A stretch of 36,874 bases of DNA from a virus: positions 1-36,874 of IMG/VR virus record IMGVR_UViG_3300030329_001356; one strand, 5' to 3'. The position numbers and the translations under genes were made by a program. The notes beneath the pieces are model-generated. The model searched no databases, was not told the origin of the DNA, and was given only the letters and a program-made list of their open reading frames with translations. Positions 18,476-30,995 of this stretch are shown in pieces. Every line of letters starts with the position of its first letter. The stretch's first letter is position 1.

Positions 18476-18515
18476 GTCGTAGAAACTCCTAGTCGCTACG
18501 CTACCTCTCTCGGTC

Positions 18516-18550
18516 GTAACATCGGTAACATCGGTAACATCCGTAACATT
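18516..18550. repeat. Four tandem 9-bp repeats (GTAACATCG type)
   Basis: GTAACAT occurs at 18516, 18525, 18534 and 18543 with an exact 9-bp period, about 40 bp upstream of the large-terminase start codon. The core GTAAC is the same as in the CGTTACA/TGTAACG cluster 400 bp away. It could be a binding array for the same protein, placed in the late leader. Confidence 0.8.
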
Positions 18551-18600
18551 CAGTTCAGATTGCTGGGCAAGCTCGGCTTTTTACCCCCCCAAATTACAAA

Positions 18601-18636
18601 CTTCCCGTGTAGCAATTGGAGGAACTACACAGGAAG
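18601..18636. other. Inverted repeat / hairpin
   Basis: A 12-base arm (18601-18612) pairs with 18625-18636 with one mismatch across a 12-base loop. A second small hairpin (CATCT-AAA-AGATG) follows at 18650-18662. On the minus strand these would lie in the leader of the late message. There is no clear T-tract, so a terminator call is not supported. Confidence 0.5.
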
Positions 18637-18932
18637 CCTGAAAAGCTGCCATCTAAAAGATGCTAGCCGTACCAACTAAACACCTGCATGGAAACCTGAC
18701 GAGGAAACCGAGTAGAGAAAGCACCCCGGATACGCCAGCAACAACAGCTTCCACAAAGTATAACCAATTACAAATTTACAAATCCATCCGCAACTGCTCT
18801 CGCAAATAACCACAACCCACTTCACGCAACGCTCGCAAATGACAAACCCAACAAAATACACCAGTAGAACTCTTACGATCACAAAGACAATGACACTGAC
18901 AATACATATAAAACACCCTACCAATACCTAGA

Positions 18933-18977
18933 CGTTACACATACCCCCTCTCCCCTTAAGGGGAGGGGTGTGTAACG
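18933..18977. repeat. Large palindrome with CCCCTTAAGGGG core and CGTTACA/TGTAACG flanks
   Basis: The outer arms are CGTTACACA and TGTGTAACG, and the centre is CTCCCCTTAAGGGGAG. The arms match apart from a few extra bases in the left arm. A second palindrome with the same core and the same outer 7-mers lies at 26341-26366 (arms extending left to 26328), over the stop codon of the primase gene. The shared design points to a common binding protein or common structural role. Confidence 0.8.
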
Positions 18978-18984
18978 GCAGTAG

Positions 18985-19100
18985 CGTTACATATACCGTT
19001 ACATAACCGTTACACCCGTTACAGGTAACCAAATCCTAGTTCAACTTACCCACTTCAAAGTGTAACGGCAACGTAACAGCACCAAAAAATACAGTAACGG
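18985..19100. repeat. Iteron-like cluster of CGTTACA / TGTAACG
   Basis: CGTTACA occurs at 18985, 18997, 19008 and 19017, and TGTAACG at 19061. Close variants GGTAACC (19024), CGTAACA (19072) and AGTAACG (19093) are also present. Together with the two copies flanking the adjacent palindrome, this makes about ten related sites in 170 bp. Several are spaced 9-12 bp apart, about one helical turn. This is the usual look of an initiator-binding array at a replication origin. Confidence 0.75.
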
Positions 19101-19179
19101 GACTCCACAATGGCGATTCTACAACAACAGGGTAGGCAACTTTTGCAATTTCAAACCGTCAGAGGGGTACCTAACATCG

Positions 19180-19262
19180 CACCCAGCACAACCCCAACAG
19201 CACACCCCCCTCCCAGCCAGCGCCACACCACCCCACACACACCGCCCCACCCCCCACACAGC
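19180..19262. other. C/A-rich tract (G-rich on the minus strand, quadruplex-capable)
   Basis: About 80 bases contain very few T or G. The minus strand therefore has several runs of 3-6 G separated by short spacers, which meets the simple pattern for a G-quadruplex. It sits between the iteron-like cluster and the TTGTGAA array. Strand-biased tracts at origins can aid strand opening; that role is inferred here. Confidence 0.5.
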
Positions 19263-19279: not shown

Positions 19280-19500
19280 TTGTGAAACGATTCACAATAT
19301 GCCATAGAACCAACGTTCTGCGAGAGATGAGCGGGCTTGTGAAACAATTCACGATCTACCGAATGGACATTGTGAAATAAATCACGATAGGCGATCTAAC
19401 ATTGTGAAAAGTTTCACGATATAGGCAGAAATACGCCTTTTGCAAAGTGCCCAAAATGTGGAATATATGCCCCAAAATAGACTTGTGAAGTATTTCACAG
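19280..19500. promoter_or_regulatory. Five-copy operator-like palindrome array TTGTGAA-N4-TTCAC(A/G)(A/G)
   Basis: Copies start at 19280, 19337, 19370, 19402 and 19483, each 18 bp long. The first is a perfect palindrome (TTGTGAA acga TTCACAA); the others differ at one to three positions, mainly in the right arm. Spacing between copies is 57, 33, 32 and 81 bp. Dyad-symmetric sites of constant length in a divergent control region are the mark of a dimeric repressor or activator, or of an initiator protein. A small helix-turn-helix protein encoded at 26722-26928 is one possible partner. Confidence 0.75.
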
Positions 19501-21106: not shown

Positions 21107-22015
21107 ATGTCAAAATTCGACATCGCATACGACAAAATCACCAACCAAATAATCGAGGCTCTGGAAGAGGGTCACATTCCATGGGAGAAACCATGGGCAG
21201 CAGGTAACACCGCCGCCCGATCAATTCATGGGAAACTTTACCGAGGATTCAACAAGATGTGGCTGGAGTTCATAGCGTGGAAACTAGGATACTCTGACAC
21301 TCGCTGGGTCACCTACAATCAAGCTAAGAAGATGGGAGGACAGGTACGCAAGGGTGAGAAGTCGCAGGTCGTAACGCTCTGGATGCAGAGCTACAATCAC
21401 CAGAGTTCATGCCCGGTTAAGAAGAGCAAAACCCCATGCGACAACATCGGTAAGAATAAATGCTCACGATATATGTTAATGCGCTACTACAACGTGTTCA
21501 ACGTCGAGCAGGTCGACGGGCTGGACATCAAGCCGATGCCCGCCGGGATCGAGAATGATTTCGATCCTATCGAGGTCGCTGAAGAGATCGTGAACGACTA
21601 TCTGGAACGTGAAGGCATCATGCTAGCGACCGGATCGGAAGCGTACTACACGCCAGCAATGGACTCGATCACGATGCCACCACGAGAGACGTTCCGATCT
21701 GCGGAATCGTACTACTCCACACTGTTCCACGAGTGCGGGCACTCGACAGGTCACGAGTCCAGACTAAACCGCAAGGACAATAAAGTGAGAGTCAAATTCG
21801 GTGATCCGGTCTATGCACAAGAGGAACTCGTAGCCGAGATGTCCAACGCATTCATCGGAGGCGTGACCGGGGTAACTAACAAGATCGAAGGCGAACAGCG
21901 GGTCGCATACATCCAGAGTTGGCTGAAGGCACTTAAGAACGATAAGAAGATGGTGGTGATGGCAGCCCAGCAAGGACAGAAGGCAGCCGACCTGATACTA
22001 GGGGAGGCTGCATAA
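21107..22015 (+). CDS. ardC: ArdC-type antirestriction protein with zincin domain
   Basis: A 302-residue protein. Residues 1-100 match the ArdC N-terminal ssDNA-binding domain (I-I-E-A-L-E-E-G-H-I-P-W-E-K-P-W, Y-R-G-F-N, W-V-T-Y-N-Q-A-K-K-M-G-G, V-R-K-G-E-K). Residues about 195-250 carry the polyvalent zinc-metallopeptidase site, H-E-C-G-H near 207-211 with downstream E-E-L-V-A-E-M. Known ArdC proteins protect incoming DNA from restriction and are often carried into the recipient. Here the gene is early, third in its unit. An unusual insert at about residues 100-120 adds three cysteines and many lysines. Leader: AACTAGCAG, then GAGAATCAATC. Confidence 0.85.
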   Translation: MSKFDIAYDKITNQIIEALEEGHIPWEKPWAAGNTAARSIHGKLYRGFNKMWLEFIAWKLGYSDTRWVTYNQAKKMGGQVRKGEKSQVVTLWMQSYNHQSSCPVKKSKTPCDNIGKNKCSRYMLMRYYNVFNVEQVDGLDIKPMPAGIENDFDPIEVAEEIVNDYLEREGIMLATGSEAYYTPAMDSITMPPRETFRSAESYYSTLFHECGHSTGHESRLNRKDNKVRVKFGDPVYAQEELVAEMSNAFIGGVTGVTNKIEGEQRVAYIQSWLKALKNDKKMVVMAAQQGQKAADLILGEAA

Positions 22016-23953: not shown

Positions 23954-24064
23954 ATGACAGCACTTATATGTCCTATTTGCAACGGCTCAATGGAGCCGGG
24001 CGATTACCGGGAGTACGGCTACTGCTATTCATGTCGGCTGGCTGAGTGGGAGGAACGCCAATGA
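23954..24064 (+). CDS. Tiny zinc-ribbon protein
   Basis: A 36-residue protein with C-P-I-C near the start and C-Y-S-C near residue 24, a complete four-cysteine zinc site. It starts right after the leader GAGAGAGAATCA. Its final codons overlap the start of the next gene as ATGA, suggesting coupled translation. Confidence 0.6.
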   Translation: MTALICPICNGSMEPGDYREYGYCYSCRLAEWEERQ

Positions 24065-24288
24065 CTATCAACCGATGGTGGGAACGCCCGAACACTACTG
24101 GTGACAGGAACTCCACAACAACACGCGTTGCTGCTAAGTATGTTTCGATGGGACTAAATCACAACGAAGTTATATTCAAACTGTTTGACTACAACAAACA
24201 ATATAACGAGCCACCGTTGATGCCATCTGAAATCTTTAACATCGCCAACCATCTTGCAAAGTATGAGATATACAGAGGGAATCAATGA
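24061..24288 (+). CDS. Stand-alone PriCT-like (primase C-terminal) protein
   Basis: A 75-residue helical protein. I start it at ATG 24061 (site GGGAGGAACGCC), not at the upstream ATG 24046. The body reads R-N-S-T-T-T-R-V-A-A-K-Y-V ... N-E-V-I-F-K-L-F-D-Y-N ... P-P-L-M-P-S-E-I-F-N-I-A. This follows the PriCT pattern: R-N followed by helices, then a P-P-L/M and E-(I/L) signature. The adjacent primase has a second such segment (about residues 205-255). It overlaps the primase gene as ATGA, so the two are probably made together and may act in one complex. Confidence 0.6.
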   Translation: MTINRWWERPNTTGDRNSTTTRVAAKYVSMGLNHNEVIFKLFDYNKQYNEPPLMPSEIFNIANHLAKYEIYRGNQ

Positions 24289-26351
24289 CAGAGAACACAA
24301 TGTTGGAGCATGCTTTGAAGTACGCAACGGCTGGCATTGCCTGCCTTGCATTAGTAAAGAACGGCAAGATACCACTCAAGCACCCGCTCCAGCCGAGCGG
24401 ATCGAAGTCTGCCACGACAGACAAGGAGACACTAACCAAAATCTTTACGGACCACCCTGATGCTAACGTTGGGATCGCCTGCGGTGATTCCTTCGTGGCA
24501 GTGGACATCGACGGAAGGGAAGGCGAAGAGGCAGTCATTCTGGCAGGGCTGAAGCTACCCGACTGCCGGACTCATAGAACTCCCAGAGGATTTCACATCC
24601 TGCTAGAACCAGACACTCAGCTAGACCAGACAGCAGGTCTGTTCACCAAGGTTGATGTCCGAACCGGGAAGTCGAATGGATACCTAGTAGCACCACCATC
24701 TGTAGTGGATGGCAAGAAGTATGAGGTGTTCAAGAACCTACCACTAGGCAGATGGGACGAGTTGGTCGAGTACACAAAGGCTAATAAACAGTCCTCTCGT
24801 CCACGCACAGGCGATACAGCAGGCTGGGGTGATGTTGGACAGCCTAGCTGGGTGAGCGAGTACCTCTCCGGGGGCGCACCTGACGGTCAGCGCAACGATG
24901 TAGCTGCTCGACTGGCTGGCTACCTCAACAGTAAGCACATCCCAATGGACGTTGCTCGTCAGTTACTGGAGACATTCCGATTGGCGTGTGACCCACCGAT
25001 GGGTGAGCGGGAACTAGACCAGACGATCCAGTCTATATATAGGTACGTGCCAGCAGAGGATGTGTTCGTATCGGCTGAACTATCAGCACCAGTGGTTGAC
25101 CAGTCAGTGGCTAACCGGAGAACTATCCGGTGGGCTGATGAAGATTTGATAAGTGAGTTATCAAGAATCACAGACAACAGTAGTGGTCTTCACTGTCGCA
25201 TCCTGTTTAGGACACACACCGATGCTATCTATGGTCCAGTCCGATTGAACCTGTTGTCTTCTTCAAGTCGTGAGTCGTTGATACGACAACTCAAGACACG
25301 CAATAAAGAAGTCAACTGGTCAATGGCACTCGACCAGATCACCAACCTTGTGTCCACCAGCTTAGACGATGCTGGTTCTGGCATAGACATGCGCTACTTC
25401 AAGCCATCAGATGAGAAGCAGGGCTGGGCTATCAGACCATTCTTGCAGGACAAATCTGCAAGCCTTGTCTTTGGGACTGGAGGTGAGGGCAAGTCAACAC
25501 TTGTCATAGCTATGCTACTGAGCAAGGCATCAGGTCGTGCGTTCATACCGGGCATAGACCCCGGCGCGCCAGCGGGTGTCATGTTCTGTGACTGGGAAGA
25601 TAACGAGACTCAGTTCTACCAGACCTGTAGTGCCCTGTTAGCTGGCATGGACATGACCTTCGATGACCTGCTAATGCCAGTGGTTTATCGGCATTTTGCT
25701 GGGGCACTAGCCGATTATTCCGACACAATCTCTGACGAGATAGCGCGCCACCGTATCGAGGTGCTTGCTATCGACTCACTCGTAGCCAGTAGCGGGAGTG
25801 AACACTCGCCCAATGATGCTGAAGCAGCACGAGTATGGCATCAGGTAGTGAGCAGTTTCGGCATAGCTTCGATTGGCATTACGCACATAGCCAAGAGCAG
25901 TGCGAACAAGGATGGCACACCCTACGGCAGTGTCTATTATTTTAATCTGGCGAGGTCAATTTTCCAGTGTTCTCGTGAGGTTGAATCAGAACACAGCAGT
26001 GTCCTAGCTGTTGCTCATCGCAAAGGCAACAACACGGGCATCATGAAGACGATGGGATTGAGGGCTGACTTTGAGTCAGATGAGTTCGACCGGGCAACAA
26101 AGATTACTTACTCAGAAGCCGACCTAAATACAACAGAGGTGCTGGCTACTAAGTTATCTGTGACCGACAGGATTCTGTACCTAATCAAAGACAGGGCAAT
26201 GGAGCCTAAAGAAATTACAGACGAACTCGACATACCTAACAACACTGTCCGACAGGCATTGCTACGAGCCAAGCAACGGGGGCTTGTAATACAACTACCT
26301 AATGGACAGTACACAGCTAACCCCGAGGACGTTACAAACCAAACCCCTTAA
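24285..26351 (+). CDS. Bifunctional prim-pol primase / RecA-fold helicase
   Basis: A 688-residue replication protein. The N-terminal prim-pol domain (about 1-190) carries V-A-V-D-I-D-G (about 70-76, catalytic acids) and T-P-R-G-F-H-I-L-L (about 99-107). A PriCT segment follows (Q-R-N-D-V-A-A-R-L-A ... D-P-P-M-G-E-R-E-L). The ATPase domain has Walker A G-T-G-G-E-G-K-S-T near 397-405 and a Walker B-like strand, I-E-V-L-A-I-D-S-L, near 490. A G-I-T-H-I-A-K motif follows, typical of RepA/AAA_25 hexameric helicases. The C-terminus is a winged-helix (K-E-I-T-D-E-L-D-I-P-N-N-T-V-R-Q-A-L). Such fusions start and drive replication in plasmids and phages without their own polymerase. The stop codon lies inside a palindrome matching the one at the origin. 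Confidence 0.88.
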   Translation: MTENTMLEHALKYATAGIACLALVKNGKIPLKHPLQPSGSKSATTDKETLTKIFTDHPDANVGIACGDSFVAVDIDGREGEEAVILAGLKLPDCRTHRTPRGFHILLEPDTQLDQTAGLFTKVDVRTGKSNGYLVAPPSVVDGKKYEVFKNLPLGRWDELVEYTKANKQSSRPRTGDTAGWGDVGQPSWVSEYLSGGAPDGQRNDVAARLAGYLNSKHIPMDVARQLLETFRLACDPPMGERELDQTIQSIYRYVPAEDVFVSAELSAPVVDQSVANRRTIRWADEDLISELSRITDNSSGLHCRILFRTHTDAIYGPVRLNLLSSSSRESLIRQLKTRNKEVNWSMALDQITNLVSTSLDDAGSGIDMRYFKPSDEKQGWAIRPFLQDKSASLVFGTGGEGKSTLVIAMLLSKASGRAFIPGIDPGAPAGVMFCDWEDNETQFYQTCSALLAGMDMTFDDLLMPVVYRHFAGALADYSDTISDEIARHRIEVLAIDSLVASSGSEHSPNDAEAARVWHQVVSSFGIASIGITHIAKSSANKDGTPYGSVYYFNLARSIFQCSREVESEHSSVLAVAHRKGNNTGIMKTMGLRADFESDEFDRATKITYSEADLNTTEVLATKLSVTDRILYLIKDRAMEPKEITDELDIPNNTVRQALLRAKQRGLVIQLPNGQYTANPEDVTNQTP

Positions 26352-26366
26352 GGGGTTGGGATGTAA
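26328..26366. repeat. Second CCCCTTAAGGGG palindrome with CGTTACA/TGTAACG flanks
   Basis: Outer arms CGTTACA (left) and TGTAACG (right) enclose a perfect ACCCCTTAAGGGGT centre. The TAA stop of the primase gene is in the middle of the core. A further GTGTAACAG follows at about 26374. The layout matches the origin palindrome at 18933-18977. As RNA it could form a strong hairpin ending the primase message; as DNA it could be a second initiator site. Confidence 0.75.
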
Positions 26367-26414
26367 CGGCTAGGTGTAACAGTAAGAAAGAGGTTATATC
26401 TAACTACTACTATT

Positions 26415-26708: not shown

Positions 26709-26721
26709 CAAAGGAGTTGTT

Positions 26722-26928
26722 ATGAACAACACAGTATCAATGACATCCATGATTGCCACACTGAGAACCCAGTTGTCGGCAAAAGAATTAGCAAACGCTG
26801 TCAACACACCGAGTGCTGAATTAGTCAGGCGGTGGGGTCGTGGTGAAGCACAGCCTGTTGCTAAATACCAAGACAAGATCAAAGAACTTTATGAACTCTT
26901 TATCAAAGAGTTTGGAGAGGACAGCTAA
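26722..26928 (+). CDS. Small helix-turn-helix protein
   Basis: A 68-residue protein started at ATG 26722 after AAGGAG; the longer frame from 26647 overlaps the previous gene. S-A-K-E-L-A-N-A-V-N-T-P-S-A-E-L-V-R-R-W-G-R-G (about 19-41) reads as a helix-turn-helix of the Cro/XRE-like type, followed by a charged helix. It may be the phage's small regulator and a candidate binder of the TTGTGAA array, but no direct evidence links them. Confidence 0.6.
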   Translation: MNNTVSMTSMIATLRTQLSAKELANAVNTPSAELVRRWGRGEAQPVAKYQDKIKELYELFIKEFGEDS

Positions 26929-30080: not shown

Positions 30081-30995
30081 CTACAAATTAGTAACCCGCT
30101 TCCACCACCGCACAGCCTTCATGCCACCACGTTGGAGTGCCCTCACCACTAACCCTATCTTTTTGCCTATCTTTCGGGCAAGCCGTAAGACCTTTGATTT
30201 TATTGACCTGTATAGCCTGATGATTAGCCTGTATATCTTTTGAACCATCGGCAAGTCGGCAAAGTAATTACCCTCACGGTCAGTTAGCCACCCTGCTATT
30301 AGACCCATCTCGTAAAGTATCAGGATAGGTAGGGCAACAAGGAACGTGAGTGTCCCGTCTAGTGACGGTGTGATAAGAGCAGCAAAGATAAACGCTGTCG
30401 GAACAATCCACTTGCGTAGTGTCCTAGCTTTTGAGTACGGGACAAATCTGAACTTAGCCAGTAGCTGCATCACTATAGGCAACTCGAACACTATCCCTAT
30501 CCAGAACAAGAGGCTCAACAGTAGAGCCATGTACTCTGTAAGCAGGATTACAGGGACAGCTATGCCACTACCAAAGTTCAGAAGGAAGTGGAGTGACACT
30601 GGCATCATCACCCAGAAAACAAATGATGCACCCAGCGCGAACATCGCTATAGATATTGCTGAATAGGTTGTTACGAATAGCCAAAACCGCCGTGGCACAA
30701 ACGGCTTCAGCATACTAAGCACTCCCACTAGAAGAACTGGGAACGCCACGAACTGCCCGCCCTTCATAGACAGGCTCAGGGTGGAGCCGAACATATCTTG
30801 GGGTGCTGTGAAAGTAGGCTTCCCCTCAAAGGGGGACAGCATCTCTTCTGCGGGGGCAAGCAGGAAAGCGAACACCTCTGGATGCCACCAGAAGGTAGCC
30901 CCTGCCCCAATACTCCATGCCAATATGCACAGGAATACGGTGTTCCTGAACCGCTGACCGAACCTGAACCCCCGCTCGTAAGCGGAGAGGCTCAT
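30081..30995 (-). CDS. tatC: TatC-like twin-arginine translocase subunit with basic tail
   Basis: A 304-residue membrane protein whose first 240 residues follow the six-helix TatC plan. The landmarks are L-L-A-P-A-E-E (45-51), K-G-G-Q-F-V-A-F-P (78-86), W-I-G-I-V-F-E-L-P-I-V (165-175, conserved Glu171), T-P-S-L-D-G (209-214, conserved Asp213) and A-L-P-I-L-I-L-Y-E-M-G (221-231). TatC binds twin-arginine signal peptides and, with TatA/B, exports folded proteins. The site corresponding to the conserved Glu after P-G/A-L reads K-P-F-V-P-R-R here, without that Glu. The N-terminal H-L-x-E-L-R motif is also poor. The last 60 residues are an unusual, strongly basic, probably soluble tail. It is a late gene directly after several one-helix peptides. 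Phage-encoded TatC is rare; its role in infection is unknown. Confidence 0.82.
   Translation of the reverse strand: MSLSAYERGFRFGQRFRNTVFLCILAWSIGAGATFWWHPEVFAFLLAPAEEMLSPFEGKPTFTAPQDMFGSTLSLSMKGGQFVAFPVLLVGVLSMLKPFVPRRFWLFVTTYSAISIAMFALGASFVFWVMMPVSLHFLLNFGSGIAVPVILLTEYMALLLSLLFWIGIVFELPIVMQLLAKFRFVPYSKARTLRKWIVPTAFIFAALITPSLDGTLTFLVALPILILYEMGLIAGWLTDREGNYFADLPMVQKIYRLIIRLYRSIKSKVLRLARKIGKKIGLVVRALQRGGMKAVRWWKRVTNL

Follow-up and report, generated by a model that had tools for sequence, protein, structure and literature searches.

PrimPol-helicase fusions are widespread in phages. P4 replicates with two cis sites, ori and crr, lying kilobases apart, and its alpha protein has an SF3 helicase and an octamer different from CGTTACA; to our knowledge, P4 has no GC hairpin centered on TTAA. 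The plasmid pRN1 of Sulfolobus encodes a PrimPol-helicase Rep with a winged helix-turn-helix (wHTH) and needs a stem-loop on the 3' side of the rep gene; this hairpin is essential and works when moved, and its structure is conserved while its sequence turns over (PMC4234260). The RSF1010 oriV, which is served by RepA, RepB', and RepC, has iterons and hairpins (ssiA and ssiB) with priming by an AEP primase (PMC4434180, PMC4234260), and in the SaPI Rep and SCCmec Cch2 systems the gene for the initiator helicase is followed directly by iterons (PMC7581432). The NrS-1 phage PrimPol-helicase is described as recognizing a specific template word, single-stranded TTTGGTTA, to start DNA (PMC8718748). 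No mapped origin for phages of the family described here is found in the open-access papers searched.

The window, which is the whole 36,874-nucleotide stretch that was analyzed, is a phage genome that maps circularly, as the original prediction had it; this is borne out by a 95-bp terminal repeat and one 670-amino-acid open reading frame (ORF) that reads across the junction. Its arrangement joins features of several known systems, namely, the hairpin 3' of the PrimPol gene (pRN1), the winged helix on iterons (P4 alpha), and iterons together with hairpins (RSF1010). The proposed initiator resembles ORF904 of pRN1 in having PrimPol, helicase, and a predicted C-terminal winged helix and a hairpin just 3' of the rep gene, but pRN1 lacks iterons and has an SF3 helicase with a 100-nucleotide stem-loop, whereas the window has 7-bp iterons, a RecA/RepA-type (AAA_25) helicase, and two sites; because iterons are present, we do not file it as a pRN1-type member. 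P4 alpha differs in having a bacterial-type primase, and the Prim-Pol and AAA_25 domains of the window fusion place it outside the P4 type. RSF1010 relies on three separate proteins, and its ssi sites are unpaired and lie on opposite strands, in contrast to the one fusion protein of the window and its iterons that form the outer hairpin arms. The SaPI Rep and SCCmec Cch2 arrangement, with iterons behind the initiator gene, is like that in five of the loci discussed below (L095, L096, L098, L135, and L137), but the helicase and primase families are different, and there is a single site and no matching TTAA hairpin. NrS-1 shares a phage PrimPol-helicase with specific word recognition, although that recognition is single-stranded and the accessible part of PMC8718748 reports no CGTTACA-type array.

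The CGTTACA array and hairpin upstream of TerL

Site 1 is situated between divergent operons, ∼460 bp upstream of the TerL start codon. Seven exact copies of CGTTACA/TGTAACG fall within 135 bp (18933 to 19067), beginning at 18933, 18985, 18997, 19008, and 19017 on the plus strand and at 18971 and 19061 on the minus strand. Across 18933 to 19099 there are nine copies with one mismatch or fewer and 10 GTTAC/GTAAC cores, such that the "about ten" 7-mers of the original prediction is a fair count for the cores and too high for exact copies. Four direct iterons (18985 to 19023, plus strand) are spaced 12, 11, and 9 bp apart, near one helical turn as had been proposed, and the outlying iterons (19061 to 19099) include the exact TGTAACG at 19061 to 19067 and one-mismatch copies at 19072 and 19093. 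The inverted repeat noted earlier beside these repeats is present at 18933 to 18977, with outer arms of CGTTACA/TGTAACG, inner GC arms, and CCCCTTAAGGGG at its center (18952 to 18963); it is predicted to form a hairpin, and 18925 to 19030 folds as single-stranded DNA with a z score of -3.4. No other 7-mer in the whole genome is as clustered as CGTTACA. Against the seven exact copies at site 1, 200 dinucleotide shuffles gave CGTTACA clusters of at most two, and the best cluster for any 7-mer in 30 shuffles is four.

Site 1 thus has the several short, helically phased, and conserved direct repeats of iteron origins, but not the AT-rich unwinding element beside them; none stands out near the array, and the AT content of the adjoining 100-bp segments is 0.50 to 0.58. 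The TTAA-centered palindrome may stand in for an AT-rich duplex unwinding element. The cumulative GC-skew minimum, proposed at the outset as a check, is at ∼20.0 to 21.0 kb and near site 1, but it coincides with the divergence of transcription, and the third-codon-position (GC3) skew of the window genome has no origin signal; GC skew is therefore uninformative as to the origin.

Searches of the window identified no Rfam RNA family and no tRNA, and the intergenic region has no DNA similarity to GenBank phages. A noncoding leader between TerL and the array (18580 to 18760; CCTRACGAGG...CACCCCGGATACG) is strongly conserved in all TerL relatives; it has no Rfam match, and RNAalifold on 18590 to 18740 gives no convincing structure. 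Tandem GTAACATCG-type repeats are located just upstream of TerL (18510 to 18555), are present only in the window and L008, and are an insertion relative to L009. Some five TTGTGAAN4TTCACRA palindromes lie at 19280 to 19500, with six TTCACAA-type 7-mers in 250 bp; this 7-mer is the second most clustered word of the genome, and the palindromes recur in L052/L004 and L013. They are likely operators of a regulator upstream of the early genes. Elsewhere, the genome codes for an ArdC-type antirestriction protein with a metallopeptidase domain (21107 to 22015) and, on the minus strand, a TatC homologue (30081 to 30995; Pfam E value, 3e-34), an 82% identical relative of which is in L073.

A second palindrome at the PrimPol stop codon

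The prim-pol/helicase fusion that had been predicted is present (24285 to 26351, plus strand), with Prim-Pol (10 to 151), PriCT_1 (193 to 256), and AAA_25 (372 to 539) domains and a predicted C-terminal wHTH, although the helicase is a RecA/RepA-type (Pfam AAA_25) domain and not SF3. In profile comparisons, the N terminus matches pRN1 ORF904 structures (E value, about 1e-4) and the C terminus matches wHTH proteins weakly but consistently. The isolated C-terminal stretch has many matches to HTH/wHTH families, all below curated cutoffs, and the equivalent stretch of L083 passes the Sulfolobus_pRN cutoff. As judged from these matches, PrimPol ends in a wHTH (26127 to 26348, plus strand), the proposed iteron-binding domain, in which the recognition helix is likely T(V/I)RQxLLRxK in CGTTACA genomes and (A/S)VxMALxRG in L064, L067, and L068. 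We note that an 80-amino-acid ORF just before PrimPol (24046 to 24288) weakly resembles the C-terminal portion of a primase family (phrog_2135; E value, 0.007).

A second CGTTACA/CCCCTTAAGGGG palindrome, overlooked in the original prediction, overlaps the 3' end of PrimPol at 26330 to 26368 (site 2), with outer arms CGTTACA and TGTAACG flanking AACCAAACCCC TTAA GGGGTTGGGA, and is adjoined by a one-mismatch iteron, TGTAACA (26375 to 26381, minus strand). The PrimPol TAA stop codon (26349 to 26351) is the center of this palindrome, the left CGTTACA is within the coding sequence, and the hairpin folds with a z score of -4.9. CCCCTTAAGGGG occurs exactly twice in the genome, once in each site (26344 to 26355 for site 2), and the expected count of such 12-mers, with one mismatch allowed, is 0.02.

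Behind the PrimPol stop codon, 13 of the 14 genomes in the family proper have a strong inverted repeat that ranks first or nearly so among post-stop windows and is typically centered on CTTAAG or CTTTAAG; the sole exception is L081 (PrimPol 61% identical), in which site 2 is absent after PrimPol. Site 2 and its counterparts in relatives thus show the pRN1-type pattern of a 3' hairpin with conserved structure and variable sequence. The gene that follows site 2 varies among relatives and from its translation appears to be HTH_17-like, resolvase-like, or RusA-like; in the window it is a small HTH-like ORF (26713 to 26928) seen only in CGTTACA genomes. Site 2 could be merely the PrimPol transcription terminator, with the two-site claim wrong and only site 1 of importance, and both the GC hairpin straight after the stop codon and a terminator-like prediction on the minus strand would fit this. 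We consider it quite improbable, as the coding strand has no T-run, the stop codon is inside the hairpin, the site 2 outer arms are the genome's own iteron word in three clades (CGTTACA, ACTAACA, and GTAACAC), and the terminator hairpin of pRN1 is dispensable whereas its ori stem-loop is not (PMC4234260).

Repeat words, terminases, and PrimPol clades

Conservation of the repeats in relatives had been set beforehand as a check, and the CGTTACA repeats are indeed kept with fixed spacing: TerL relatives of the CGTTACA type have 4 to 11 copies each, and most retain an inverted copy at a distance of 14 bp as well as the 12/11/9-bp spacing. The inner hairpin arms vary (CCTCTCCCC, CCTCCCCCC, CACCCCC, AACACACCCCC, and others) yet still pair, and they do so in 25 of the 27 listed palindromes, although these were picked by eye or by scan and the P values show only inner-arm pairing; the exceptions are L030 and L032 at site 1, where the palindrome is shorter and the inner part has no fold of its own. 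Because the spacing varies, a scan of viral contigs for CGTTACAN9CCCTTAAGGG gave zero matches.

PrimPol is 60 to 81% identical in CGTTACA genomes and 26 to 29% identical in genomes with other iteron words (ACTAACA in L102 and L067, and GTAACAC in L094), whereas TerL is 77 to 95% identical over the same comparison, even though the repeat word is replaced. These identities support the view that the iteron word tracks the PrimPol clade and not the neighboring terminase or the other conserved boxes. The clades compared are few and TerL divergence shows the same split, so the co-turnover is to be read as occurring in a handful of clades and not as many independent events. When site 2 k-mers are used as the query, site 1 is the top-matching 200-bp window in the rest of the genome in the CGTTACA (window, L006, L007, and, beside TerL, L004), ACTAACA (L102 and L067), and GTAACAC (L094) clades, and in these both sites share the genome's own iteron word. 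The agreement fails in L082, L083, L091, L104, L106, and L098; L089 contains too little sequence for this comparison, and L067, the same genome, includes site 1. We note that L082 has six CGGTTAA copies in 200 bp (L082 positions 1501 to 1800), unlike its own post-PrimPol palindrome.

Three other boxes in the same gap, GGGACTCC (19099 to 19106), CGTCAGAGGGGTACCT (19157 to 19172), and CAGCACACCCCCC (19198 to 19210), are present in most TerL relatives whatever the iteron word, with GGGACTCC, GTCARRGGGGT, and CARCAYACCCCC recurring in most genomes of both the CGTTACA and other-word groups, and they are candidate packaging or promoter elements. It is very improbable that site 1 is itself a cos/pac site at which the small terminase subunit would recognize DNA for packaging. 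Its position ∼460 bp from TerL would suit such a site, but the repeats change completely while TerL does not, contrary to the conservation with terminase expected of cos/pac, and the three boxes are better packaging candidates. Moreover, site 2 and the arrays 3' of PrimPol are not close to TerL, and the L083 array has no link to a detectable relative of the window TerL.

Six more distant phages with PrimPol-type fusions (L095, L096, L098, L110, GenBank MW202867.1 [L135], and Arthrobacter phage Bennie [L137]) have a full iteron array directly 3' of the gene, and in all six this array ranks first for repeats among the 160 to 361 windows per locus. MW202867.1 has eight copies of TGGGACA with a CCTATAGG palindrome, and Bennie has five of AGTTACA. 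Their position implies that the array belongs with the PrimPol gene, and in the window family the main array is 7.3 kb from PrimPol and beside TerL. L083 to L086 have a TATAACA array of 10 to 11 copies 4 to 6 kb from PrimPol, and no TerL of the window type is detectable. Three other fusion or PrimPol loci (L134, L108, and L093) have neither array nor palindrome behind the gene, and a search of genome contigs identified one distant PrimPol relative in a Chloroflexi metagenome-assembled genome.

These arrays also bear on whether the CGTTACA sites are operators, bound by a regulator that would control the genes after PrimPol from site 2 and, from site 1, the divergent promoters of the late (TerL) and early genes. 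The divergent operons around site 1, the HTH-like ORF restricted to CGTTACA genomes, promoter-like sequence after site 2 in L007/L081, and the nearby TTGTGAAN4TTCAC palindromes, which show that operators exist in the region, are all in keeping with this. However, no promoter-like match lies over the site 1 array, the only one being at 19462 to 19489, and the gene following site 2 is not conserved, whereas the six distant phages have the array right behind PrimPol whatever follows. A simple operator would also hardly need 7 to 11 phased copies together with a hairpin, and we regard regulation of this kind as unlikely.

A candidate two-site replication origin

The conserved repeats, the word that follows the PrimPol clade, the matching stop-codon palindrome, and the 3'-of-gene arrays together support the reading of this region as a replication origin. 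We put the probability at roughly 70% that site 1 is the main iteron/hairpin origin bound by the PrimPol C-terminal domain and site 2 a reduced secondary copy, a reading that draws on sequence comparisons. The PrimPol-helicase would bind the CGTTACA iterons of site 1 through its C-terminal winged helix, and the RecA/RepA-type helicase would oligomerize on the helically phased array and open the duplex, such that the GC hairpin with its TTAA center is extruded and the AEP domain could prime DNA synthesis on the exposed strand. Site 2, as a reduced gene-linked copy presumably bound by PrimPol, may serve in secondary initiation, loading, or copy control, and it could be a loading site like P4 crr. 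Steps comparable to these are described for pRN1, P4 alpha, and RSF1010. The mechanism itself, from binding through melting to priming, and what each site does are inferred.

More tentatively, and at somewhat less than even odds, these phages may represent a class of origin with two sites that serves phage PrimPol-helicase initiators, in which the iterons double as the outer arms of a TTAA-centered hairpin, one copy is at the initiator stop codon and the full array is ∼7 to 10 kb away, and the initiator keeps both words identical, with the word replaced in each clade. The pattern would provide a rule for locating origins, through a TTAA-centered palindrome 3' of the fusion gene whose arms are the iteron word, and it offers a testable pairing of initiator and iteron, the two changing together from clade to clade.
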